Shown here: positions 15,468 through 31,331 of the stretch, piece by piece
Numbering within the stretch: the first letter of the stretch is position 1
How the letters are laid out: every line of letters begins with the position of its first letter
From: Asticcacaulis taihuensis
GTDB lineage: Bacteria > Pseudomonadota > Alphaproteobacteria > Caulobacterales > Caulobacteraceae
DNA: 64,000 bases
Assembly: GCF_900100255.1 (NCBI RefSeq)
Contig: NZ_FMTS01000001.1
Location: 1,302,001 to 1,366,000 of the forward strand
Direction: 5' to 3'
The notes under the pieces: generated by a model
Database searches by the model: none
The model's input: the letters and a program-made list of their open reading frames with translations, nothing else
Told to the model about the DNA's origin: nothing
Position numbers and translations under genes: made by a program

Positions 15468-17561
15468 TTGACCGCCGGCCCAGTCATGCTGGGTCTGGGG
15501 CTTTTAGCGACGGCTGTTCAGGCCCAGGAAATGGCCCAGGAAACGACAGCAGTCGAAGTACCGGCGGTCAAGCCGGCCCAGGAAGAAGCGCCGCCCCTGC
15601 CCGACAATCCGCAGGACGCCCCGATCATTACGGATGACGATTTCAACGCCGCCCTGCCCCCGATCGAGGCAACGACCGCCCCACCAGCGGAACCCACGCC
15701 TGAGGCGACCCCAGACACCCTGCCTGAGGTCACCGCCACCGATGATCCGGAACTGGATGCCCCCTTGCCGGCGCTGGAAGGCTATGATGTCCAGCCGAAC
15801 CAGATGGCCGCCACCGAAGAGGCCCTCCCGGAAATCCGCTATGTCACCGTGGTCGACGGCCTGCATGACATCCACCTGAACGATGAATTCAAACCCCTGT
15901 CGGCCCTGATGAACGGCAAGGGCAAGGCCGCCAATGTCGCCCAGGTGCGCGCCCGCGCCACCGAAGACGAAGCCCTGATCCTGCGTCTGCTGAAATCACA
16001 AGGCTATTACGACGGCACTGTCACCACCAGCCTCGCCCAACCGAGCGAGGCGGGCGGCCCGGTCCAGGCCCATATCGTCGTTACACCCGGCCCGGCCTAT
16101 CACTTCGGCCTGATCATGGCCGATGCCCAGCCGACCCTGCCGCCCGACCTGATCCGCAATGCCCTGCCGCTTCAACCCGGCGAGCAGATCATCGCCACCC
16201 ATGTGCTGGCAGCCGAGGCCAACGTCAGCGTGGTCCTGCAACAATCCGGTTACCCGTTCGTCAAGGTCGGCGAGCGCGATATCCTGCTCGATGGCGCCAA
16301 ACTGACCGGTGACTATACGCTGAAGGTCGATACCGGCCACCGCGCGCGCTTCGGCGGCTTCAAATCCGATGGCAAGGAAGCCTTCAGCGCCGATCACGTC
16401 GCCGCCCTCACTCGCTTCGAGAAGGGCGACCTTTACGACAATCGCAAGGTTGATGACCTGCGCGAGGCCCTGGTCTCGACCGGCCTGTTCCGCTCCGTGG
16501 CGGTCGAACCCGTGGCCACCGGCATCTTCGCCGCTGACGGCTCGGAATATGTTGACCTGCTCGTCCACCAGCAGCGCGGCCCCTATCGGACGATCGCCGG
16601 TGAATTCGGCTACAATACCGGCGAAGGCGTCACCGCCACCGCTTCCTGGCAGAACCGCAACAAGTTCCCGCCCGAAGGCGCCCTGATCATCACCGCGGCA
16701 CTGGGCACACAGGAGCAGGGCCTGACCACCACCTTCCGCCGCTCCAACGCCAAAAAACGTGACCGCACTTTCCAGCTTTCCTCGGCCCTGACGCACAATA
16801 TTTATGACAGCTACGAAGCCTATACCTTCAATGTGGCCGGCTCCGTGGCGCGTGTCTCGACGCCTTTGTGGCAGAAGGTCTGGACCTGGTCCTATGGCTT
16901 CGACCTGGCCGCCTCGCGCGAAGCCACCGACGGGGTGGTCAATTTCAGCGACGCCGCCGATAACTACTATATCGCCGCCCTGCCGACCAAGCTGGCCTAT
17001 GACCGGTCCGACAGCCTGCTCAACCCCGCCACCGGCTATCGCGCCAGCGCCGAGGTAACGCCGCTGATTTCGCTGTCAGGCGGCGGGGCCAGCATCCGCA
17101 CCGTGTTTGACGCCAGCTATTACTATCCGATGGGTAACAAGGCGGTCATAGCCGCGCGCAGCCGCCTGGGTGTCATCTATGGCGGCGAACTGGACAAGAT
17201 ACCCCCGTCACGCCGCCTCTATGCCGGCGGCGGCGGCAGCGTGCGCGGTTACAGCTATCAGCAGCTCGGCCCGCATGATGCCACCGGCACCGCCACGGGG
17301 GGCTTGAGCCTGTTCGAAGCTTCGGTCGAATACCGTTACCGCATGGGCGATATCGGCATCGTGCCGTTTATCGATATCGGCCAGTCCTATGCCTCGACCA
17401 CGCCGTCCTTCTCCGACCTGCGCGTCGGCTTCGGTATCGGCGCGCGGCTCTATACCAATTTCGGACCGATCCGCATCGATGTGGCTACACCGGTCAACCG
17501 CGACAAGTCCAACGGCGAGCCGCAGATCGCGCTCTATGTCGGCATTGGGCAAGCATTCTAA
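15468..17561 (+). CDS. tamA: Omp85-family outer-membrane translocation protein TamA
   Basis: An outer-membrane beta-barrel that works with TamB to insert or supply other envelope components. Of 697 residues, about 25-115 form an acidic Pro-rich linker, 120-370 hold POTRA-type domains, and 375-697 form the Omp85 barrel with GGGGSVRGYSYQQLGP and the final strand ending in Phe. The marked start is a TTG without a ribosome binding site, giving a short signal peptide (ending AVQAQ). The frame stays open upstream; an ATT codon at 15441, seven bases after GAGGG, would give a fuller signal peptide. The stop shares a base with the tamB start. Confidence 0.88.
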   Translation: MTAGPVMLGLGLLATAVQAQEMAQETTAVEVPAVKPAQEEAPPLPDNPQDAPIITDDDFNAALPPIEATTAPPAEPTPEATPDTLPEVTATDDPELDAPLPALEGYDVQPNQMAATEEALPEIRYVTVVDGLHDIHLNDEFKPLSALMNGKGKAANVAQVRARATEDEALILRLLKSQGYYDGTVTTSLAQPSEAGGPVQAHIVVTPGPAYHFGLIMADAQPTLPPDLIRNALPLQPGEQIIATHVLAAEANVSVVLQQSGYPFVKVGERDILLDGAKLTGDYTLKVDTGHRARFGGFKSDGKEAFSADHVAALTRFEKGDLYDNRKVDDLREALVSTGLFRSVAVEPVATGIFAADGSEYVDLLVHQQRGPYRTIAGEFGYNTGEGVTATASWQNRNKFPPEGALIITAALGTQEQGLTTTFRRSNAKKRDRTFQLSSALTHNIYDSYEAYTFNVAGSVARVSTPLWQKVWTWSYGFDLAASREATDGVVNFSDAADNYYIAALPTKLAYDRSDSLLNPATGYRASAEVTPLISLSGGGASIRTVFDASYYYPMGNKAVIAARSRLGVIYGGELDKIPPSRRLYAGGGGSVRGYSYQQLGPHDATGTATGGLSLFEASVEYRYRMGDIGIVPFIDIGQSYASTTPSFSDLRVGFGIGARLYTNFGPIRIDVATPVNRDKSNGEPQIALYVGIGQAF

Positions 17562-20500
17562 TGGCGCGCAAACCGAGACAACCAAAACCGCCCGTGGAAC
17601 CGGTGGAAACACCGGAGGCGTTGTCGCAGCCCGCGCCACTCCACAATGACGACCTTCACCTGAAGGATCGCGTGGAAACCGTTACCGAAGAGGTCGTGGA
17701 GACCGTCAAGGCGCGCACCGGTTTTGACCTGAGGCGCATCAACTGGTGGAAAGTATCACGCTATATCGCGCTGTTTGTCATAGGCCTGGCGGTGTTGCTG
17801 GTGGCGGCGCTGACCGCGCTAAATACCCCGCCGGGTCGCCGCCTGCTGGTCGAATTCGCCACCGGCATCAAGCTCAATTCCGGCTTGCAGATCGAGATTG
17901 GTGAGATCGACGGCTCGCTCTATGGTGAAATGACCCTGCACGACGTCAAGGTGAAAGACCTCAAGGGCGTCTTTATCCAGAGCCCGGCCATTCACCTCGA
18001 CTGGCGGCCTTTCGGCTATCTCAACAAGCACGTCGATATCCGCGATTTCTCGACACCCAGGATAGAAGTCCTGCGCCAGCCGGTGCTCAATCCCAGCGAA
18101 ACACCGAAGAACAATGGCCCGCTGCTGCCGGACCTCAATATCGACATCAACCGCCTGAAGGTCGACGCACTGGTGCTTGATGCGCCCGTGCTGGGGGAAG
18201 CGCATACGATCGCGTTCAATGGCCAGGCCCATCTGCGCCACAAGCGATTGAAGATCGACGCCGCCGCCATCAGCGAAAAGGGTGATCATGCCCAGGTGCT
18301 GATCGATGCCGCGCCGGATAAGAACGAACTCGATATCAAAGCCAATCTCGACGCCCCGGCCGATGGCGTAGCGGCTAAAATGCTCGGTTTCGACAAGGCC
18401 TTTACCGCCGATATTGGCGGAAAGGGGACCTGGAAACAATGGAATGGCCGCGCCATTGCCGATTTCGGGCCTGATAACCTGCTGAATCTCAATGTCACGG
18501 CGCAGAGCGGGACCTTCCATATCACCGGCGCCACACACCCCGATCTGGTCCTGGCCGGCGATACGGCTGCCCTTTTCAAGCCGGCGGTCATGATCGACCT
18601 GACCTCGAAGATGAAGGACCGGGTGTTTGACAATGTGCTGGCCCTCTATACCGACGCCCTGCGCGTCGACGCCAGGGGCACGGTCGACTTGGGCCATAAC
18701 CATTTCCGCAAGCTGGAGTTTCATGCCCGATTGCTCAAGCCGGATGTGCTCGGCAAGGATTTCACGGCTTCCGACCTGCGCGCCGATCTGGTTGTCGATG
18801 GCAATTTCGACAGCCCCCGCATCGATTATGATCTGGCCGCCAAACGCTTCGATCTGGCCGGCATTAAGCTCGATGGGCTTACCGCCAGGGGCAAGAGCCG
18901 CATCACCGATGACGGCGTGATCCTGCCCATCAATGCGCAACTGATCTCCCTGACAGGCATCGCCGACCAGGTCGATCCGTTGCTAACGCACCTGAAGCTC
19001 GATGGCGAGGTCCGCCTGAATGACGGCAAGCTGACCAGCAACACCATCCGGATCAATTCCGATCGCATCAAGGCCACGGGCACGATCACCGGCAATCTGA
19101 AGGACAATCTGTTCCTGGCCAAGGTGAAAGCCAATCTCAATAATTACGCGGTCGAAGGCGTTGGCACGGTCAATGTCTCGACCGTCGCCGATGTCAGGTT
19201 GAACAAGGGCCGCGTCAGCGTCGCCGGCACCGCCAATGCCCAGACGACAAAGCTGGAAAACGGTTTGAAAGGCTTTCTCGGCGGCAATGCCAAACTGAGC
19301 GGCGCCTATGCCTATAGCGAACAGGGTGTGGTGACCTTGCGCAATCTCAGCGGCAAGGCACCCGACTTCACCCTGATTTCAGCTTCCGGTTCGCTGGCTC
19401 CTAACGGCACCATCTCGCTGAACGCCAGGGCCAATTCGACCCAATATGGCCCGCTCGATGCCGTGGCATCCGGCACGCTTGACCACCCCAACGCGGTCAT
19501 CCACGCCGCCAATCCGGGCCTGGGTGTCCAGATGGTCGATGTCACGGCCAGGCTTTCCAGCACGCCGCAGGGTTTTACCCTCCTGGCCGATGGCGGCAGC
19601 GCCTACGGCCCGTTCGACGCCGATGCCCTGATCATTACCGAGGGAAAGCCCCTGCGCATCGATATCCACAAGGCGACTTTCGCGGGTGTAGATGCCTCGG
19701 GCCTGCTGACCCAAAGCGATGCCGGCCCTTTCACCGGCACACTGGCGATCAGCGGTTCCGGCCTCAAGGGCACCGCGCTTCTCTCGGCGCAGAATGGCGA
19801 CCAGGCCCTGGCGATCAATGCCACCGGCAATGCCGTCACCGTGCCGGGCGACGTAAAGATCTATGTCGGCCGCACCCTCGTCGCGGCCAATATTGTGCTG
19901 CATGACCAGATGTCGCTAAATGCCGATGTCCAGATGGCCGACATGCGCTACCAGGATTTCGTGCTGGCCACCGGCCGCGCCAAAATTGCTATGACCGGCG
20001 AGCGCGGCACCATCCAGGCCGTCGCCACCGGCAAAAAGGATGTGCCGTTCAATCTCGCCGTAAATGGCACTATCGCGCCTGATACCTACACCTTCGCGGC
20101 AAAAGGGGCGGCCAATGATATTCCCTTCAAGCTCAATCATCCGGCGGTCATCCGCAAAAGCGGCACCGACTGGGTGCTCCAGCCGGTCAAGGTGGTGATG
20201 TCGGAAGGAAATATCGACCTCTCCGGTCGCTTCGGCGAAAACCTGAAGGCGCAGGCCCGCCTCAACAATCTCGATCTCAGCCTGGCCAATATGGTGCAAA
20301 AGGATCTGGGCCTGACCGGCACAGCCGATGGCGCCATCGACTTCTCCCAGACCGGCAACAGCTTCCCGACCGCCCGCGCCAATCTCAAGATCAGCCACTT
20401 CTCACGCGCCAGCGCCGCCGTGGTCTCCACGCCGGTCGATATCGTGCTCGACGCCCAGCTTAATCCCGATCGCAGCCCGGCCAATAACTATGTCCATGCC

Positions 20501-21874
20501 CTCATTCGGCAGAGCGGCAGCGTGGTCGGCCGCGCGCAACTGGCACTCACGCCCGCCAATGGCGGCGACTGGATCGCCGATATCAACAGCGGCGGTATCA
20601 GCGGGGGGGTGCGCTATAATGGCCCTGCCGGGATGCCCTTCTCGCTCGCCGGCCTGCCGCGCCAGCAGCTCTCCGGTGCCGTAGCTCTGGCGGCCGATAT
20701 TTCCGGCCAACTCAATGCCCCGCGCCTCAACGGTGTGGTCAAGGCCACCAGCCTGACCTATGACAATGAAAGCATCGGCACACGCATCACCAATATCGCG
20801 CTGGATGGCCGCTTCACCAGTGATCGCCTGGAACTGACCAGCTTCACGGGCCGCGCTGGAGACGGCACGGTCACCGGCAATGGCTGGGTCAGCCTGGCCG
20901 CCGCACAAAAATTCCCCATGCTGATCCATGTCGAGATGAATAATGCCCGCCTGGCCCGCAGCGATGCGATCAACTCCACCGTTTCCGGCACGATCGATGT
21001 CACCAACAGCGAAGCCGACGGGGGGCTGATCAGGGGCGATTTGCGCCTGCCCCTGCTCAGATATGTTATTGTCAAACAGGCCGCGGCCGAGGTGGCGGTG
21101 CTGGATGGCGTCCGTCGCAAGGGCGAGGAGGCGATCACCCAGTCGGCCATCGCTCTGCCGGCCTTCTGGCGGCTCGATATCCGCGCCCGCGCCGATAACC
21201 AGATCTTCGTCTCCGGCATGGGCCTGGAATCGGAATGGTCGGCGCGCCTGCGCGTCACCGGCACAACGAAAGACCCGCGCATCGTCGGCGACATGAAGGT
21301 AGTACGCGGCAACTATACCTTCGCCGGCCGCTCCTTCGACATCGATACCGGCACCATCACCTTTGATGGCGGCCCGGTGGCTGATCCCGAAATCAACCTG
21401 ACCGCCAGCGCCGATGTTCAGGATGTCACCGGCATCATCAAGGTGACCGGCTCGGCCCAGCGTCCGTCCATCGCCTTCTCCTCCACACCGGCCCTGCCGC
21501 AGGATGAAATCCTGTCGCGGATGCTCTTCGGCGAAAGCGTCGCCAATATCTCGCCCACCGAAGCCCTGCAACTGGCCTCGGCGGTCAATGGCCTGAACGG
21601 CGGCACCGACTACCTCAATCCGCTCGGCGCCCTGCGTTCGGCTACCGGCATCGACCGCCTGCGCGTGGTCGGCGCCGATACCACCACCGGCCGCGGCACA
21701 TCGGTGGCGGCGGGCAAATACCTGACCAATAATGTCTATGTCGAGATTGTCACCGACGCCAAGGGCTTCACCGCCACCCAGCTTGAGGTCGCCCTGTCGC
21801 GCAGTCTGAGTATCCTCTCGACCACAGGAAATGCCGGCACGGGCGCGAGTGTCAGGTATTCAAAGGATTATTAA
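17561..21874 (+). CDS. tamB: Translocation and assembly module protein TamB
   Basis: A 1437-residue AsmA-like protein that spans the periplasm from the inner membrane to TamA and is thought to move phospholipid or assist barrel assembly. One membrane segment lies near residues 65-88 (YIALFVIGLAVLLVAALTAL), after a Pro-rich cytosolic tail. The rest is a long run of beta-strand repeats forming a hydrophobic groove. The C-terminal 350 residues match the conserved TamB/DUF490 domain (GNYTFAGRSFDIDTGTITFDG, then LFGESVANISPTEALQLASAV). The start overlaps tamA (TAATG), so the two are coupled. The length is normal for the family. Confidence 0.93.
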   Translation: MARKPRQPKPPVEPVETPEALSQPAPLHNDDLHLKDRVETVTEEVVETVKARTGFDLRRINWWKVSRYIALFVIGLAVLLVAALTALNTPPGRRLLVEFATGIKLNSGLQIEIGEIDGSLYGEMTLHDVKVKDLKGVFIQSPAIHLDWRPFGYLNKHVDIRDFSTPRIEVLRQPVLNPSETPKNNGPLLPDLNIDINRLKVDALVLDAPVLGEAHTIAFNGQAHLRHKRLKIDAAAISEKGDHAQVLIDAAPDKNELDIKANLDAPADGVAAKMLGFDKAFTADIGGKGTWKQWNGRAIADFGPDNLLNLNVTAQSGTFHITGATHPDLVLAGDTAALFKPAVMIDLTSKMKDRVFDNVLALYTDALRVDARGTVDLGHNHFRKLEFHARLLKPDVLGKDFTASDLRADLVVDGNFDSPRIDYDLAAKRFDLAGIKLDGLTARGKSRITDDGVILPINAQLISLTGIADQVDPLLTHLKLDGEVRLNDGKLTSNTIRINSDRIKATGTITGNLKDNLFLAKVKANLNNYAVEGVGTVNVSTVADVRLNKGRVSVAGTANAQTTKLENGLKGFLGGNAKLSGAYAYSEQGVVTLRNLSGKAPDFTLISASGSLAPNGTISLNARANSTQYGPLDAVASGTLDHPNAVIHAANPGLGVQMVDVTARLSSTPQGFTLLADGGSAYGPFDADALIITEGKPLRIDIHKATFAGVDASGLLTQSDAGPFTGTLAISGSGLKGTALLSAQNGDQALAINATGNAVTVPGDVKIYVGRTLVAANIVLHDQMSLNADVQMADMRYQDFVLATGRAKIAMTGERGTIQAVATGKKDVPFNLAVNGTIAPDTYTFAAKGAANDIPFKLNHPAVIRKSGTDWVLQPVKVVMSEGNIDLSGRFGENLKAQARLNNLDLSLANMVQKDLGLTGTADGAIDFSQTGNSFPTARANLKISHFSRASAAVVSTPVDIVLDAQLNPDRSPANNYVHALIRQSGSVVGRAQLALTPANGGDWIADINSGGISGGVRYNGPAGMPFSLAGLPRQQLSGAVALAADISGQLNAPRLNGVVKATSLTYDNESIGTRITNIALDGRFTSDRLELTSFTGRAGDGTVTGNGWVSLAAAQKFPMLIHVEMNNARLARSDAINSTVSGTIDVTNSEADGGLIRGDLRLPLLRYVIVKQAAAEVAVLDGVRRKGEEAITQSAIALPAFWRLDIRARADNQIFVSGMGLESEWSARLRVTGTTKDPRIVGDMKVVRGNYTFAGRSFDIDTGTITFDGGPVADPEINLTASADVQDVTGIIKVTGSAQRPSIAFSSTPALPQDEILSRMLFGESVANISPTEALQLASAVNGLNGGTDYLNPLGALRSATGIDRLRVVGADTTTGRGTSVAAGKYLTNNVYVEIVTDAKGFTATQLEVALSRSLSILSTTGNAGTGASVRYSKDY

Positions 21875-22029: not shown

Positions 22030-22896
22030 TTACTTTTCCAACTCAGCCAAATCCGCCAGAAACGCCTCAATCGCCGTCACGGCTTCCGGTTCATCCAGCA
22101 TCGGCGCATGGCCGCGATTGGCGACCGTTACGGCGCGCATCCCCGGATGTGTCTCCAGCATCTTGCCGAAGGTCGCTTCCGATAAAAGATCGGACAGTTC
22201 CCCGCGCACACCCAGCACCGGTATCTCTTTCAGCGCCTCCCAGATGCCCCACATATCCGGCGGCGCCACCACAGGCCCATCCGGATCGAAAGCGCCGGAA
22301 ATGCCCGGATCGTAGGCGGACACCGGAACGCCGTTCTGTTCGTGATAGGTCCGGCGCGCGAAAGCCAGCCAGTCGTCCTCCGTATAATCCGGAAAGGCGA
22401 CATCATTGGTCTGTTTGGCCCGCGCCGCGGCATCGGCCCAGGAGCGGATCGGCGGCGACTTGCCGACATAGGACTTGATGCGCTCAAGCCCCGCCACGTC
22501 GATCTCCGGCCCCACATCGTTGATCACCATGCCGATCACCGCCTGCGGGGCGATCATGCCCATGATCATCGCCATGATGCCGCCCATCGAGGTGCCGATC
22601 AGAGCCGCGCGGGCAATGCCGAGATCGCCCATCAGCTTGAACATATCCTGCACATAAAGCGCCGGCGTATAGTTGGCCGGTTCCGCATCCCAGTCCGACC
22701 GACCGCGGCCGCGCTGATCGACCGCGATCACCCGATAGCGTTCTGCCAGGCGCGGCGCAATCACCTCGAAATCGGCTGAATTGCGCGACAGGCCGTGCAT
22801 ACAGATAACCGGCATACCCTGACCACCATAATCACGGGCATACAGCTTCACCCGCAGGTCATGGCTGTCGTAATAGACATCTTCATAAGCCGTCAC
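22030..22896 (-). CDS. Alpha/beta-fold hydrolase
   Basis: A 288-residue cytosolic hydrolase. The oxyanion strand reads VICMHGLSRNSADF, the nucleophile is Ser103 in GTSMGG, and the catalytic His lies in NRGHAPMLDEPEA near the C-terminus; the acid is probably in the VLGVRGELSDLLS strand. DQRGRGRSDWD is typical of the haloperoxidase/lactonase-like group of this superfamily. There is no signal peptide. It is 12 bases downstream of the DUF3443 gene on the same strand and could be co-transcribed with it. The substrate is unknown. Confidence 0.87.
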   Translation of the reverse strand: MTAYEDVYYDSHDLRVKLYARDYGGQGMPVICMHGLSRNSADFEVIAPRLAERYRVIAVDQRGRGRSDWDAEPANYTPALYVQDMFKLMGDLGIARAALIGTSMGGIMAMIMGMIAPQAVIGMVINDVGPEIDVAGLERIKSYVGKSPPIRSWADAAARAKQTNDVAFPDYTEDDWLAFARRTYHEQNGVPVSAYDPGISGAFDPDGPVVAPPDMWGIWEALKEIPVLGVRGELSDLLSEATFGKMLETHPGMRAVTVANRGHAPMLDEPEAVTAIEAFLADLAELEK

Positions 22897-22908
22897 GCAC
22901 GATATCCC

Positions 22909-24186
22909 TTAGAAAGCGACATAGGGACCAAGCGTGCCGCCGGCATTGCGTCCGGCGATCGCCGTATAAACCTTGCGGCCATAAAAGAACGGCAGGCCGA
23001 AATCAAAGCTGTTGCTGTAGGGCTGGAGATTGTCGAACCCGTTCGGATCGCCGCCCAGGCCGGGCAGGACATAGTTCGGCCCCTGGACCAGTTGGTCGGT
23101 GTTGTCGAGGGTGAAATTGACCACCTTGCTGGCGCCGTTACTGCCCGTCAGACTGGCGCTCAGATCAAGCGACGAGGTCGGACAGTAGAAGCCGGCCAGG
23201 TCGCCGGTGCAGCCGGTAATGGCGCTGTCGCTGAAGCCATAGAAATTGGTGCCGCTGTCGATAAAGCTCTGGGTCAGGCCGACGCCCTTGTAGGTCGCCG
23301 TGATCAGGCCGTAATTGTTGGCGGTCAGTATGGTCTGGCTGCCCAACTGGTTATTGGTCTGGGTGCCTATGCCAAAATAGAGCTTGCCGGTCAGGCCGAC
23401 CACACCGGGATGCGCCACCGCCGGCAGGTCGATCACCGTGCCGTTATTATTGACAGTCATGCGCGCCACCGGATTGGGCACCTGAGACGAGGTGGCCAGT
23501 ATCGTGCCCGTGCAGGTGGCCGAAACACAGGTGTAATAATAGCCGTTGTTCGTCGTGCCGGCGCAATAGCTGCCGCAATCGCTGACGCCCATGCCGATGC
23601 CGATAATGCCATTGGCGCCAAAATCGGCGATGGTGTCGTGGCTGGTGCCGCCGCCCGATGAACAATCCGTCGGCACATTGGCATAGTCGCCGGTATCGCC
23701 GATCACCAGCATGGGCATGTTGCTCACGGATTCGCCGCCGATAGTGAAATCCGCCGTCCGCACCGAGCCGAAAACATAGCCATCGACATACTGGTAACAT
23801 TCACCGACGCCCTTGCCGCCGGTCGTGGTGTGCGGCAGGGCGGCGCGCATGGCCGTGCTCAGGGCTTCGTTTTCGATACGCAGCCCCACCGAGCCGGTAT
23901 CCATGATGATGTGATCGATGGTCTGGCAGGTGGCGGTGCCCGGCGCACAGATCTTCACCGTCACGAAGCCGATATTGACATTGCCCGCCACGCCCGTCGG
24001 TCCCGGATCAACCGAGACGGTGGTGTAATTGGCAAGGGTTACGCTGCTGGAAGACGAAGACGAAGACGACGAACTGCTGGAACTGCTGAATGAGCCGCCC
24101 CCACTAGACGAACCGCCACCGCCCCCTCCGCCGCCACAGGCGGCGAGCAGGAGCAGGAACCCGACCAGGAAAATATGCGGCTTCAT
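22909..24186 (-). CDS. DUF3443 lipoprotein with pepsin-like aspartic protease motifs
   Basis: A 425-residue outer-membrane lipoprotein: lipobox LLLLAAC with Cys17, followed by Gly, not Asp. Residues 18-48 are a Gly then Ser linker with a run of 15 Ser. The remainder fits family DUF3443. It shows the landmarks of family A1 proteases in order: Asp96-Thr-Gly-Ser (IIMDTGSVGLRI), GIIGIG at 193-198, GKLYFG near 267, Asp310-Ser-Gly-Thr (FIDSGTNFYGF), and the C-terminal FGLPFFYGRKVYTAI, like the closing ILGDVFLR-YYTVFD strand of pepsin. Several Cys could form disulphides. The protease reading is my inference. It overlaps the DUF2844 gene by four bases. Confidence 0.8.
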   Translation of the reverse strand: MKPHIFLVGFLLLLAACGGGGGGGGSSSGGGSFSSSSSSSSSSSSSSSVTLANYTTVSVDPGPTGVAGNVNIGFVTVKICAPGTATCQTIDHIIMDTGSVGLRIENEALSTAMRAALPHTTTGGKGVGECYQYVDGYVFGSVRTADFTIGGESVSNMPMLVIGDTGDYANVPTDCSSGGGTSHDTIADFGANGIIGIGMGVSDCGSYCAGTTNNGYYYTCVSATCTGTILATSSQVPNPVARMTVNNNGTVIDLPAVAHPGVVGLTGKLYFGIGTQTNNQLGSQTILTANNYGLITATYKGVGLTQSFIDSGTNFYGFSDSAITGCTGDLAGFYCPTSSLDLSASLTGSNGASKVVNFTLDNTDQLVQGPNYVLPGLGGDPNGFDNLQPYSNSFDFGLPFFYGRKVYTAIAGRNAGGTLGPYVAF

Positions 24187-24656
24187 TGGGCGCCTCCCTG
24201 CAGGGCCTGGACCGGGAAGCCGCCGGGTGCCGTCTGCGGCAGATAGGCAAAGCCCCAGAAGGCGCCGCTGTGGCCGCCGGTGCGCACCACGAAATCGCTG
24301 TGGCTCGAAGCCAGGCCCCGTCGCATACGGATGCGCGGATTGGCTTTGTTGTCCGCCTGGAAGCGGTTGAAATAGCTGTCACCGAAAAGCTGTTTGAGGT
24401 TCGGCCGCTGCGGTCCCTGCCAGCTTACCGCAAAAACCGTACCGTCCGGCCGGATGAATTCGCGTGCCGTCGTGCCGCTCTCAAGGGTCATTTCATGCAC
24501 GCTGTAGGTCGCCTGATCGAGCCGCGAAGCTATGCGGGCATTGAGCCGCGCCCGATCGGTCTCGATGCTGGCCGCCTTACCGCCTAACGTGGCATGGGCG
24601 GGAACTGCCAGGGCCAGCATGGCCAGACATATCGACCCCGTAATGACAGACCGCAT
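24183..24656 (-). CDS. DUF2844 secreted protein, partner of DUF3443
   Basis: A 157-residue exported protein with a signal peptide (SICLAMLALAVPAHA, cleaved before TLGG). The body carries family-typical stretches: GTTAREFIRPDGTVFAVSW, a central GDSYFNRF, and GAFWGFAYLP near the end. DUF2844 genes commonly sit directly before DUF3443 genes, and here the stop overlaps the DUF3443 start (ATGA), so the two products are made together. The function is unknown; it might be a folding partner, substrate or inhibitor of the putative protease. The upstream gap of about 90 bases, before hutC, must hold the promoter. Confidence 0.75.
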   Translation of the reverse strand: MRSVITGSICLAMLALAVPAHATLGGKAASIETDRARLNARIASRLDQATYSVHEMTLESGTTAREFIRPDGTVFAVSWQGPQRPNLKQLFGDSYFNRFQADNKANPRIRMRRGLASSHSDFVVRTGGHSGAFWGFAYLPQTAPGGFPVQALQGGAQ

Positions 24657-24749: not shown

Positions 24750-25445
24750 TTATCTCTGGTCGAAGCTGGCGATCAGCCGGTAGGCGCCGCCATCGAAGAC
24801 CTGCCGGACCGTGGTGATGCGTTCCGTCCCGCGCCATGTCCTGCGGTCGACCACCAGACAGGCCGTGCCCTCATCCAGCCGCAGATGGAGGGCGGTCTGC
24901 CCTTCCGCCGGCTGGGCGCTGATCTGGTTCTCCACATGCGTCCAGGGCACGACGCCAAGCAGCCAATGCCCCGGCGACTGACGGGTGAAATCAACACTTT
25001 CGGCCTGCGGCACCGCTTCGAGATTGATCAGCCGGCGCTCAAAGGCCAGCGGCTTGGCCGAGGCGAAATGCAGGCCGGTCAGCGCCAGAACCTTGCCGCT
25101 TCCGGCCAGTTCCCGTTCCTCGTCGCTGTTAGCCTTATGAAGGGCATAGGACAGCAGCTCAAATCGGTAGACTTCCCCGCGCGCCGTGATCTCATGCTGA
25201 ATATCGGGAATATCGAGCACGGTCGAATCCAGCCGCGGCAGGCGCACAAACGTACCCGCGCGCTTGCGGCGTTCAATCAGACCGCCTTCATCCAGAGGCG
25301 TCAGCGCCTTGTTGACCGTCATACGCGAGACGGAATATTGCGCCATCAGTTCGTGCTCGAACGGAATGCGGTCGCCAGGCTTCAGTGCGCCTGAGCGGAT
25401 CTGGTTCTCGATATCGTCACGAATTTTTTGGTGAAGCGGCTTCAT
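24750..25445 (-). CDS. hutC: Histidine utilisation repressor HutC (GntR family)
   Basis: A 231-residue regulator that represses hut genes until urocanate binds. The N-terminal winged helix-turn-helix reads LKPGDRIPFEHELMAQYSVSRMTVNKAL; residues 85-231 are the UTRA ligand domain, with FASAKPLAFERRLINLE and a C-terminal VRQVFDGGAYRLIASF. The frame is open much further upstream, but the ATG at 25445 overlaps the hutF stop (ATGA) and gives the usual length. Its likely target is the inverted repeat at 26757-26794, which would make it autoregulatory. Confidence 0.93.
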   Translation of the reverse strand: MKPLHQKIRDDIENQIRSGALKPGDRIPFEHELMAQYSVSRMTVNKALTPLDEGGLIERRKRAGTFVRLPRLDSTVLDIPDIQHEITARGEVYRFELLSYALHKANSDEERELAGSGKVLALTGLHFASAKPLAFERRLINLEAVPQAESVDFTRQSPGHWLLGVVPWTHVENQISAQPAEGQTALHLRLDEGTACLVVDRRTWRGTERITTVRQVFDGGAYRLIASFDQR

Positions 25446-26743
25446 GAGGCCAGTCTTTGCATCAGCTTGCGATAATCGGCAAGAACGGCGGCGCGTTTGA
25501 TATGGCGGCCGCCCTCTACCTGTTTGCGGCCAAAGCGCCAGACGCAATCGATCGGTGACCGCGCCGAGGCGAAAACGAAGCTGTCCAGGTCGCACTCCAG
25601 ACTGACGATATCCGCCGGCTGGCCGATAGCGATTCCTGATTGAACGCCAAGCGCCTGCGCGCCATCGAGCGCGCGGATATAGAGGCTTTCTCCACATGAA
25701 GAATTGGCCAGCACATTGCGTTCACAGTGGATCAGGCGCTGGCCATATTCGAGCAGGCGCAGCTCCTCGGCGGCGCTGATCAGCACATTGGAATCCGAGC
25801 CAATGCCGAAGCGCCCACCCTGCTTCAGATAGTCGCGCGCCGGAAAAACACCATCCCCCAGATTGGCCTCTGTAATTGGGCACAGGCCGGCTATGGCGCC
25901 GGATTTGGCCAGGCACGTCGTTTCCTCCGGTGTCATGTGCGTGGCATGGACCAGGCACCACTGATCATTGACCGGTGCATGGTCGAGCAGCCATTCCACC
26001 GGCCTTTGCCCCGTATGAGCCAGGCAGTCCTCGACCTCCTTCACCTGCTCGGCGATATGAATATGAATCGGCGCGCGCGGCGCCAGCGGGATCAAGGCCG
26101 TCAGTTCTTCCGGTGTGACGGCACGCAAGCTGTGCGGCGCTATGCCAACCACCGCATCATCCAGACGTGCGGCATGTCCGTGACTGGCATCGAGCAGCCG
26201 CTGGAAACCATCGAGATCGTGGATGAAGCGCACCTGCCCCGGCGTCGGCGGCAAGCCACCAAAACCGGAATGGGCATAAAAAACCGGCAGAAGCGTCAGG
26301 CCGATGCCCGTGGCCTCGGCCGCCGCCAGGATACGCCCGCCCATCTCCGCCGGATCGGCAAAGGGCCGGCCGTCAAAATCATGATGCAGATAATGGAATT
26401 CGCCGACACGGGTAAATCCGCCCTCCAGCATCTCCATATAGGCCAGTGCGGCGATAGTTTGCAGCTCATCCGGCCCGATCCGCGCCTGGAATTTATACAT
26501 CTGCTCGCGCCATGACCAGAAGCTGTCTTGTTCCGAGGTCCGCCGTTCCGTCAGGCCGGCGATAACGCGCTGGAAGGCGTGGCTGTGCAGGTTGGGCATT
26601 CCCGGCACCCCAATCGCGTGGCGCTCTCCCTGAGGCATCGTGTTGGTTTCAATGCTCGTAATCCGGCCATTTCCGATGGTCAGCAACACATTGGACTGCC
26701 AGCCGGACTTGAGCAGCGCTTTTTCAAACCAAAGTGATGACAT
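25442..26743 (-). CDS. hutF: Formimidoylglutamate deiminase HutF
   Basis: HutF deaminates N-formimino-L-glutamate to N-formyl-L-glutamate, a step of the five-enzyme histidine pathway. The 433-residue amidohydrolase has metal-binding NLHSHAFQR near residue 60, EFHYLHHDFDG, HIHIAEQ with conserved His, LVHATHMTPEE, and GIGSDSNVLIS with the C-terminal Asp ligand. I prefer the ATG at 26743 (MSSLWF), preceded by AAGG, over a TTG five codons upstream. It is divergent from hutI and runs into hutC. Confidence 0.93.
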   Translation of the reverse strand: MSSLWFEKALLKSGWQSNVLLTIGNGRITSIETNTMPQGERHAIGVPGMPNLHSHAFQRVIAGLTERRTSEQDSFWSWREQMYKFQARIGPDELQTIAALAYMEMLEGGFTRVGEFHYLHHDFDGRPFADPAEMGGRILAAAEATGIGLTLLPVFYAHSGFGGLPPTPGQVRFIHDLDGFQRLLDASHGHAARLDDAVVGIAPHSLRAVTPEELTALIPLAPRAPIHIHIAEQVKEVEDCLAHTGQRPVEWLLDHAPVNDQWCLVHATHMTPEETTCLAKSGAIAGLCPITEANLGDGVFPARDYLKQGGRFGIGSDSNVLISAAEELRLLEYGQRLIHCERNVLANSSCGESLYIRALDGAQALGVQSGIAIGQPADIVSLECDLDSFVFASARSPIDCVWRFGRKQVEGGRHIKRAAVLADYRKLMQRLAS

Positions 26744-26756
26744 GTGCCTTGCGCTC

Positions 26757-26794
26757 AATATGTCTATACATTATGAATTATGTATAGACATATT
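26757..26794. promoter_or_regulatory. Probable double HutC operator between hutF and hutI
   Basis: A perfect 15-base inverted repeat, AATATGTCTATACAT (26757-26771) and its complement (26780-26794), with an 8-base spacer. Each arm is itself a near palindrome (TGTCTATACA / TGTATAGACA) of the TGTNTANACA type bound by HutC-group GntR regulators. It lies within 20 bases of both divergent starts, so one repressor assembly could shut both operons. Confidence 0.8.
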
Positions 26795-26812
26795 AGGCGA
26801 GTCTGAGAAGCC

Positions 26813-27994
26813 ATGCAATGCGATACGGTCTGGACAAATTGCCGCCTGCTGGCCCGCGCCGGTCAGCCGCTGATCGACAAGGGCATGATCGCCGCAAAAA
26901 ACGGGCGCGTCGTATATGCCGGGCCCGCGACGGATTTCGACGCCCCGACCATCGATCTGGGCAGGCGACTGGTGACCCCCGGCCTGATCGATTGCCATAC
27001 CCATTTGGTCTTCGCCGGCAACCGCGCCCATGAGTTCAAGCTGCGGCTCGATGGTGCCACCTATGAGGAGATCGCCCGTGCCGGCGGCGGCATCCTCTCG
27101 ACCGTCACCGCCACTCGCGCCGCCTCCGAAGACGAACTGATCACCGCCGCCCTGCCCCGGCTGGATGCCTTGATCGCTTCCGGCGTCAGCACCATCGAAA
27201 TCAAGTCCGGCTACGGCCTGACTCTCGAAGATGAGCTGAAAATGCTGCGCGCCGCGAAAGCCCTGGAACGCCGGCGCCCGGTGCGGGTCATGACCACGCT
27301 GCTCGGCGCCCACGCCCTGCCGCCGGAATACAAGGACCGGCCAGACGCCTATATCGATGCCGTCTGCCACGAGATGATCCCGGCCGTGGTAGGCCTGGCC
27401 TCGGCGGTTGATGTCTTCTGCGAGGGCATCGGCTTCTCGCCGGCTCAGACGGAGCGCGTCTTCCAGGCCGCCCAAGCGCATGGCCTGCGCGTCAAGCTGC
27501 ACGCCGAACAGCTCTCCAACCTGCACGGCGCAGCCCTGGCGGCACGTTATGGCGCCCTGTCCGCCGACCACCTCGAACATCTTGACGCAGATGGTATCGA
27601 GGCCATGCGCGACGCCGGCACGGTGGCCACCCTCCTGCCCGGCGCCTTCTACTTCATGCGCGAGACTTATCTGCCGCCGATCGAAGGTTTGCGCGCCGAA
27701 AACGTCCCCATGGCCATCGCCACCGACTGCAATCCCGGCACCTCGCCGCTGACTTCGATCCTGATGGCAATGAACATGGCTGCCACCTGCTTCCGCCTGA
27801 CAATCGATGAATGCCTGGCCGGCGTCACCACCAATGCTGCGCAAGCGCTCGGCCTGTCGCACGAAATCGGCACCTTGGAGGCCGGCAAGTCATGCGACCT
27901 CGCCATCTGGGACTGCGCCGAACCGGCCGACCTCGTCTATTTCATTGGCGCCTCGCCCCTCCATTCCCGCGTATTCCAAGGTCAAACTATATGA
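26813..27994 (+). CDS. hutI: Imidazolonepropionase HutI
   Basis: HutI hydrolyses 4-imidazolone-5-propionate to N-formimino-L-glutamate. The 393-residue amidohydrolase shows the metal motif [17 protein letters not shown] near residue 62, [40 protein letters not shown], and [11 protein letters not shown] with the conserved Asp. The start lies 18 bases after the HutC operator, with GAGAAG upstream. The stop overlaps hutH by four bases. Length and motifs are normal for the family. Confidence 0.95.
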
Positions 27995-29523
27995 TCCTCA
28001 CTCCCGGCTCCGTCACCCTGGCGCACTGGCGCGCGATCTATCGCGGCGAAGCGTTCTCGCTCGATCCCGCCTGCCTGCCGCACGTCGCCGAGAGCGCCTC
28101 GGCCATCACCCGCATCCTGGCCAAGGGCGAGCCGGTCTATGGCATCAATACCGGTTTCGGCAAGCTGGCCTCGACGCGCATCGATGACGCCGATCTGGCG
28201 ACGCTCCAGCGCAATATCATCCTCTCTCATGCTGCCGGTGTCGGTGCGCCGTCGCCGAAACCCGTGGTCCGCCTGATGCTGGCGCTGAAACTGGCCTCGC
28301 TGTCACAGGGCGCTTCCGGCATCCGGGTCGAGACGCTCGAACTGATGGAAGCCCTGCTGGCCCACGATCTGATACCAGTCATCCCGTGCCAGGGATCGGT
28401 GGGGGCTTCCGGCGATCTGGCGCCGCTGTCGCATATGGCCGCCGCCATGCTGGGCGTTGGTGAAATCGAAGCCGCCGGGGTGCGCAAGCCCGCCCTGCAG
28501 GCCCTGACAGATGCCGGCCTGAAGCCCCTCGATCCCGGCCCGAAGGAAGGCCTGGCCCTGCTCAACGGCACGCAATTCTCGACCGCCAATGCGCTGGCCG
28601 GCCTGTTCGAAGCCGAGGTGCTGATGCAGACGGCGCTGATCACCGGCGCGCTCTCAACCGAGGCCGCCAAGGGTTCGGATGCCCCGTTTGATCCGCGCAT
28701 CCACACCCTGCGCCGCCATCGCGGCCAGATCGATACCGCCCACACCTTGCGCGAACTGATGAGCGGTTCAAGCATCCGCGCTTCCCACCTGAAAGGCGAC
28801 GCGCGCGTCCAGGACCCCTATTGCCTGCGCTGCCAGCCCCAGGTTATGGGCGCCGCGCTCGATGTTTTACGCCAAGCGGCTGCCACGCTGGAAACCGAGG
28901 CCAATGGCGTCACCGACAATCCGCTGATTTTTACTGATCGCGACGGCACGGCGGATGAAGCCCTGTCTGGCGGCAATTTCCATGCCGAGCCGGTGGCCTT
29001 CGCCGCCGACATGATCGCGCTGGCGATCTGCGAGATCGGCTCGATTGCCGAGCGGCGTATCGCCATGCTGGTCGATCCGGCGCTGTCGGGCCTACCGGCC
29101 TTCCTGACTCCAAAGCCCGGCCTCAATTCCGGCTTCATGATCCCGCAGGTGACCGCCGCCGCACTGATTTCCGAAAACAAGCAGAAAGCCTATCCGGCCA
29201 GCGTTGATTCCATCCCGACCTCGGCCAACCAGGAAGACCACGTCTCCATGGCCGCCCATGGCGCGCGCCGCCTGATGGAAATGGCCGAGAACGCCTTTGC
29301 CGTCATCGGTATCGAACTGCTGGCCGCCGCCCAAGGCTGCGATTTCCACGCCCCCCTCACCTCGTCCGAGGCGCTGGAACGCGTCCGCACCCTGACCCGC
29401 TCGTCTGTGCCCGCGCTCGATCACGACCGCCATTTCCATCCGGATATGGCCCTGGCCATTGAGCTTGTCCGTTCCGGTGCTGTCATCAAGGCGGCGAACA
29501 TAAACCTGCCGACGGTGGAATAG
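27991..29523 (+). CDS. hutH: Histidine ammonia-lyase HutH
   Basis: HutH removes ammonia from L-histidine to give urocanate, the first step of the pathway. The 510-residue enzyme has the Ala139-Ser140-Gly141 triad ([14 protein letters not shown]) that cyclises to the MIO cofactor, the [11 protein letters not shown] segment with the active-site Tyr, and [15 protein letters not shown] longer frame begins upstream, but the ATG at 27991 overlaps the hutI stop (ATGA) and gives the standard length. A palindromic repeat separates it from hutU. Confidence 0.95.
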
Positions 29524-29533
29524 ACACAATCGA

Positions 29534-29657
29534 TCTCCCCCTCTTGGAGGGGGAGCTTGGAAATTGCGTTCAGCAATTTTCAAGAGGGGGTAAATGCCCC
29601 CGACAGAGTTACCCCCTCCGGCGCTGCGCGCCACCTCCCCCTCCAAGAGGGGGAGAT
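29534..29657. repeat. GC-rich palindromic repeat inside the hut operon
   Basis: The arms CTCCCCCTCTTGGAGGGGGAG at the left and their complement at the right enclose an AAATTGC...GCAATTT hairpin and CCCCCTCC...GGGGG boxes. It belongs to the same family as the copy at 12720, with longer stems. It lies between hutH and hutU, where it may lower readthrough or protect RNA ends. Confidence 0.85.
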
Positions 29658-29678
29658 TTATAGAAGGATGAGCCACCC

Positions 29679-31331
<1,653 letters not shown>

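Follow-up and report, generated by a model that had tools for sequence, protein, structure and literature searches.

DUF3443 lipoproteins and their DUF2844 partners: a probable pepsin-fold protease system of the bacterial cell envelope

A stretch of 64,000 nucleotides from Asticcacaulis taihuensis (contig NZ_FMTS01000001.1, positions 1,302,001 to 1,366,000 of the forward strand; hereafter the window) encodes a DUF3443 lipoprotein that is probably a new protease of the cell envelope; a secreted DUF2844 protein, encoded immediately upstream, is probably its dedicated partner. We assign a probability of roughly 0.78 to the reading of DUF3443 as a working pepsin-fold aspartic protease of the cell envelope. 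Its proteolytic activity and localization, as well as the role of DUF2844, are what we infer from a structure model, conserved residues and gene order. The pairing of DUF2844 and DUF3443 genes is a new observation. Among open-licence papers, we found none on DUF3443, DUF2844 or their accessions, and none titled on a pepsin-like lipoprotein or outer-membrane family; the fold may have been noted elsewhere.

Predicted Fold and Catalytic Motifs of DUF3443

The DUF3443 open reading frame (ORF; window positions 22909..24186, minus strand, as are all features of the gene pair described below) starts with ATG and codes for 425 amino acids. Residues 52–425 matched PF11925 (E 1.8e-119) with 399.4 bits, exceeding the curated cut-off of 25 across the full profile (positions 4–367 of 367), and neither this protein nor the DUF2844 protein attained the cut-off of any NCBIfam model. 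An earlier note, made from the sequence without database searches, had described a tethered, two-lobed protease of the pepsin type, and the motifs it quoted were found at the residues claimed: Cys17, DTGS (96–99), GIIGIG (193–198), GKLYFG (267–272) and DSGT (310–313), followed by a closing motif that reads FGLPFFYGRKVYTAI in the translation (residues 396–410). As read by eye, a putative signal peptide ends in the lipobox LLLLAAC17 (residues 1–17, 24136..24186), which is the pattern of a lipoprotein, and many DUF3443 relatives start similarly (by eye, uncounted). The poly-Gly/poly-Ser spacer that had been reported behind Cys17 was also recovered (residues 18–48, 24043..24135). The distance from Cys17 to the first modelled strand of the domain, at residue 54, is too short to accommodate a pepsin-type propeptide.

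The structure model (predicted local distance difference test score 96.4) contained two pepsin-like lobes in one chain, and all 50 listed VIA-align entries were pepsin-type. The first catalytic motif, D96-T-G-S (23890..23901), is placed in the N lobe and the second, D310-S-G-T (23248..23259), in the C lobe, giving one Asp-Thr/Ser-Gly motif per lobe as in pepsin family A1; from the two-lobe alignment, the side chains of both Asp would be expected to face each other over a single cleft. A hairpin formed by modelled strands 125–133 and 136–149 (residues 125–149, 23740..23814) is the presumed flap, with an aromatic residue, 133, at a Tyr75-like position. Two psi-loop motifs were identified, G193-I-I-G196 (23599..23610) and F394-D-F-G397 (22996..23007), the latter 87 residues past Asp310.

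A scan of species genomes gave 593 pattern-matched stretches, of which at least 501 proved to be DUF3443. Window residues 49–425 were aligned with the matched parts of the best 80 of these, and the resulting 81-row alignment is tilted towards closer relatives because the best stretches were kept; among them, two Asticcacaulis proteins (L025 and L026) had 79% and 71% identity to the window protein. Asp96 and Asp310 were invariant (81/81 each), as were Ser99, Gly101, Arg103, Gly196, Gly312 and Gly397. Within the motifs, residues varied at positions 97 (Thr 77, Ser 4), 311 (Ser 65, Thr 16) and 313 (Ser 76, Thr 5), and position 98 was Gly in 78 rows and Ala in 3. Positions 194 and 195 were Ile, Leu or Val in all rows, and the first psi loop (194–196) fits the hydrophobic-hydrophobic-Gly pattern of family A1. 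Both Asp were also invariant in a 23-row alignment built from another genome collection (22 of 22 homologs; some genomes are common to the two alignments), and were retained in a plasmid-borne DUF3443 of 28% identity and in two tandem paralogs. Ten cysteines were kept in 74–81 of the 81 rows, several of which are near enough in sequence that they may pair. We predict with high confidence that DUF3443 folds like pepsin and keeps both catalytic Asp. The pepsin-like interpretation of the earlier note is supported: two of the checks it had named, on the fold and on the conservation of both Asp, did not refute it.

The DTG/DSG words are short, and sequence searches alone gave no significant E-value link to pepsins, as would be expected if the motifs had arisen by chance in an unrelated beta-rich lipoprotein. 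This explanation is contradicted by the model, the structure alignments and the column conservation, and we regard it as extremely improbable. A strict two-motif pattern (two hydrophobic residues and D[ST]G[STA], then 140–260 residues, then a hydrophobic residue and D[ST]G[STA]) was present in 1 of 60 window ORFs of at least 250 amino acids, namely the DUF3443 gene, and in none of 1072 other ORFs of that size in 80 related loci; by this count, the motif set exceeds chance expectation.

A DUF2844 Partner with Probable Translational Coupling

The upstream gene (24183..24656) encodes a 157-residue DUF2844 protein (PF11005, E 4.1e-35) with a signal peptide recognized by eye. Its stop codon overlaps the DUF3443 start codon in an ATGA sequence (24183..24186), and a Shine-Dalgarno-like GGGAGG lies within the end of the DUF2844 gene (24193..24198), 6 nt before the DUF3443 ATG; because of this arrangement, translational coupling of the two genes is likely. 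In an iterative profile search of the loci, started from the DUF2844 protein of the window, 78 of 80 DUF3443 loci had a DUF2844 homolog upstream and on the same strand (74 of 80 by a stricter tally). In 77 loci it was located within 1.3 kb of the matched part of DUF3443 and in one (L071) at 3.1 kb. As for the two loci with no match, the upstream sequence of L045 was limited to 27 nt, and in L068 no DUF2844 was present in 6 kb. No further conserved neighbor of DUF3443 was found at the related loci by a method of limited sensitivity.

When 398 genomes drawn across the phylum were searched, DUF2844 occurred in 10, the same 10 that carried a DUF3443 above the cut-off. Initial counts were 16 DUF2844 and 14 DUF3443 genes; the final ratio was 16:16, since each of the two surplus DUF2844 genes precedes a DUF3443 that had not been scored. 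A limited number of candidates was scored per genome, and additional copies are possible.

Because DUF3443 has no propeptide, DUF2844 may supply the function of a prodomain, inhibitor or chaperone from a gene of its own. A prodomain or inhibitor acting in trans would account for the missing propeptide, the fixed gene order, the one-to-one gene count and the coupling. In the mechanism that we consider most likely, DUF3443 would be exported, receive a lipid at Cys17 and stay at the cell envelope on its flexible Gly/Ser tether. Asp96 from the N lobe and Asp310 from the C lobe would together activate water in the cleft between them, and the flap hairpin with aromatic residue 133 would close over the substrate. 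DUF2844, secreted and made just before DUF3443, would stand in for the propeptide as a folding helper or inhibitor. Such a two-gene protease system, in which a separate, translationally coupled upstream protein folds and restrains a membrane-tethered envelope pepsin, is put forward tentatively.

Alternatively, DUF2844 might be the substrate and DUF3443 its dedicated processing protease, with trimmed DUF2844 then acting on its own. The one-to-one occurrence of the genes in the sampled genomes and the position of DUF2844 as an upstream exported partner agree with this possibility, and a precedent is PecA, an aspartic protease of the mycobacterial surface by which exported proteins are processed (excerpts of PMC6819658). 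On the other hand, the invariant and nearly invariant residues of DUF2844 are spread over positions 42–125 of a 138-residue segment and are not clustered at one linker, a slight argument against a substrate. DUF2844 as substrate accounts for the pairing nearly as well as the prodomain or inhibitor does, and we consider it possible, if rather doubtful.

Divergence from Known Pepsins

Several observations qualify the reading of DUF3443 as a pepsin-type enzyme with a partner in trans. First, PF00026 was absent among the families matched by the 81 members in a Pfam scan with E up to 10, in which HMMER filters remove most matches above about E 0.1. In the same scan, Asp_protease_2 matched 4 of 81 members (best 5.5e-4), gag-asp_proteas matched one (0.011), and unrelated families gave weak matches as well. 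Comparison by hhalign with three bacterial PF00026 proteins was also weak (probability 2.9%, E 0.016), the alignment pairing DTGS with DTGS and GIIG with GILG; with six such proteins it was weaker still. With a hidden Markov model built from the 81 members, none of the PF00026 proteins compared scored better than E 1.4. We therefore refer to DUF3443 as A1-like and do not file it in family A1; the family A1 of the earlier note is best understood in this sense. Given the weak profile comparison, the case rests on the fold and the invariant motifs.

Second, of 87 ORFs over the DUF3443 region of the 80 loci, among them some that are out of frame, just 46 contained the strict two-motif pattern, and the position two before Asp96 was Gln in 23 and Glu in 9 of the 81 rows; the alignment column counts are better evidence than strict pattern matching. 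Third, the residue seven after Asp96 is the invariant Arg103, at a position which we take to correspond to Trp39 in pepsin, and the second psi loop (395–397) reads Asp-(Trp/Phe/Leu/Tyr)-Gly, with Asp395 in 79 of 81 rows. Fourth, residue 133, which from its hairpin position may be the equivalent of pepsin Tyr75, was Phe in 62 rows and Tyr in 19, including the window protein. According to excerpts of PMC2761423, pepsin homologs with a Phe in the flap had not been shown to be active, and a Tyr-to-Phe mutant of rhizopuspepsin retained weakened activity. As to the partner, shewasins also have no prosegment, and the excerpts of PMC4814920 mention no such protein. Moreover, no DUF2844 was present in the 7-kb stretch containing a divergent plasmid DUF3443 (L126).

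A related possibility is that DUF3443 has kept the pepsin fold but lost the ability to cut, its cleft binding a ligand or protein and DUF2844 being this ligand or a co-receptor. Plant xylanase-inhibitor proteins, which have a pepsin fold, are a precedent for a non-cutting binder, and the mostly Phe flap aromatic, the invariant Arg at the Trp39-like position and the Asp in the second psi loop are consistent with such a function. In addition, PE_PGRS16 has an aspartic protease fold and no activity was observed (excerpts of PMC6819658). However, both Asp, Ser99 and Gly312 are conserved in 81 of 81 rows and Gly98 in 78, a binder would not need both Asp, and both Asp persist in paralogs that have lost cysteines. 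A binding protein devoid of catalysis is hard to reconcile with two invariant Asp; we regard it as possible but unlikely.

Comparison with Known Aspartic Proteases

The eukaryotic A1 pepsins to which the DUF3443 model was compared, including Irpex lacteus proteinase (1wkr), pepsin, plasmepsins and BACE1, had 12–19% identity to DUF3443 in structure alignments. DUF3443 differs from them in having no PF00026 match, no propeptide, a predicted lipid anchor, a Phe/Tyr flap, Arg103 and an Asp in the second psi-loop motif. Among bacterial aspartic proteases, retropepsin-like enzymes are of the single-lobe type. RloA proteases, which are secreted and have signal peptides (PMC12239564), and APRc (PMC4140852) resemble DUF3443 as bacterial aspartic proteases, but both are described as retropepsin-like, whereas a single DUF3443 chain contains two lobes.

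Pepsin-type enzymes are considered rare among bacteria; Rawlings and Bateman reported A1 homologs in seven bacterial species, none with a signal peptide (excerpts of PMC2761423). Shewasins and the Sinorhizobium/Marinomonas group are, like DUF3443, pepsin-type enzymes with two motifs (excerpts of PMC2761423 and PMC4814920). Shewasins share with DUF3443 the absence of a prosegment, and shewasin D is active at acid pH, inhibited by pepstatin and mostly cytoplasmic (excerpts of PMC4814920), while the Sinorhizobium/Marinomonas group has Phe at position 75, as do most DUF3443 proteins (excerpts of PMC2761423). In contrast to these enzymes, which are described there as having no signal peptides, DUF3443 proteins carry a lipoprotein signal and ten conserved cysteines and are encoded next to a partner gene. 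PecA likewise has DTG and DSG motifs and is a bacterial aspartic protease associated with the surface (excerpts of PMC6819658), and the PE-PGRS_C aspartyl peptidase-like profile matched 1 of 81 DUF3443 members (7.3e-5). PecA differs from DUF3443 in being a PE protein secreted by the type VII pathway, and the word "lipoprotein" is absent from the text of PMC6819658.

DUF3443 would add an exported family to the bacterial pepsin-type enzymes, one that sequence profiles do not connect to PF00026. Two domains of unknown function gain a testable identity at once, and the regulation of propeptide-less bacterial pepsins becomes open to direct experiment.

Distribution and Unusual Relatives

The distribution of DUF3443 is scattered rather than common. 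A family search detected it in 11 of 100 genomes, including the source genome, and of the 398 genomes in the phylum-wide sample, 10 had a DUF3443 above the cut-off and an eleventh match fell below it. Among the matches listed, it was present in Alpha-, Beta- and Gammaproteobacteria and in two metagenome-assembled genomes labelled Acidobacteriaceae. Of five plasmid matches, four were annotated only as DUF3443 proteins and one had no listed gene. One plasmid member (L127) has a DUF2844. The divergent Caballeronia plasmid protein (L126:2983-4053; 28% identity by tblastn) has retained Arg103 as well as the catalytic Asp. As annotated, it starts too late to include a signal peptide, but the open frame continues further upstream.

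A tandem DUF2844-DUF3443-DUF2844-DUF3443 arrangement was observed in one genome (G410, L124:3006-7102). A long spacer of Gly/Ser and Pro/Thr is present in one of its DUF3443 copies, and some of the otherwise conserved cysteines are missing from both. In ten other loci (L049, L052, L055, L056, L075, L085, L089, L090, L093 and L096), we noticed by eye that the presumed signal is followed by a repeat-like segment with a C[TS]A[SN]GAW motif, which precedes the DUF3443 domain and may be a spacer of the Ig-like kind; Big_3_5 gave a weak match in 3 of 81 DUF3443 members. A 4118-residue open frame (G233, L020:1-3240) has repeat-like stretches and contains DTGS and DSGA in a pepsin-like setting. It scored under the DUF3443 cut-off (E 3.9e-4) and may encode a giant protein of the cell surface into which an aspartic protease domain is built.

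Neighborhood in the Window

An alpha/beta hydrolase gene (22030-22896, minus strand) begins 12 nt past the DUF3443 stop codon and may be co-transcribed with DUF3443; it was not among the recurrent neighbors of DUF3443 loci. On one side, the pair adjoins a histidine-utilization-like cluster (24750-31331), in which Pfam identified a GntR/UTRA regulator and inspection by eye suggested ORFs resembling a deiminase, imidazolonepropionase, HutH and urocanase. TamB (Pfam) is located on the other side, at 17561-21874.
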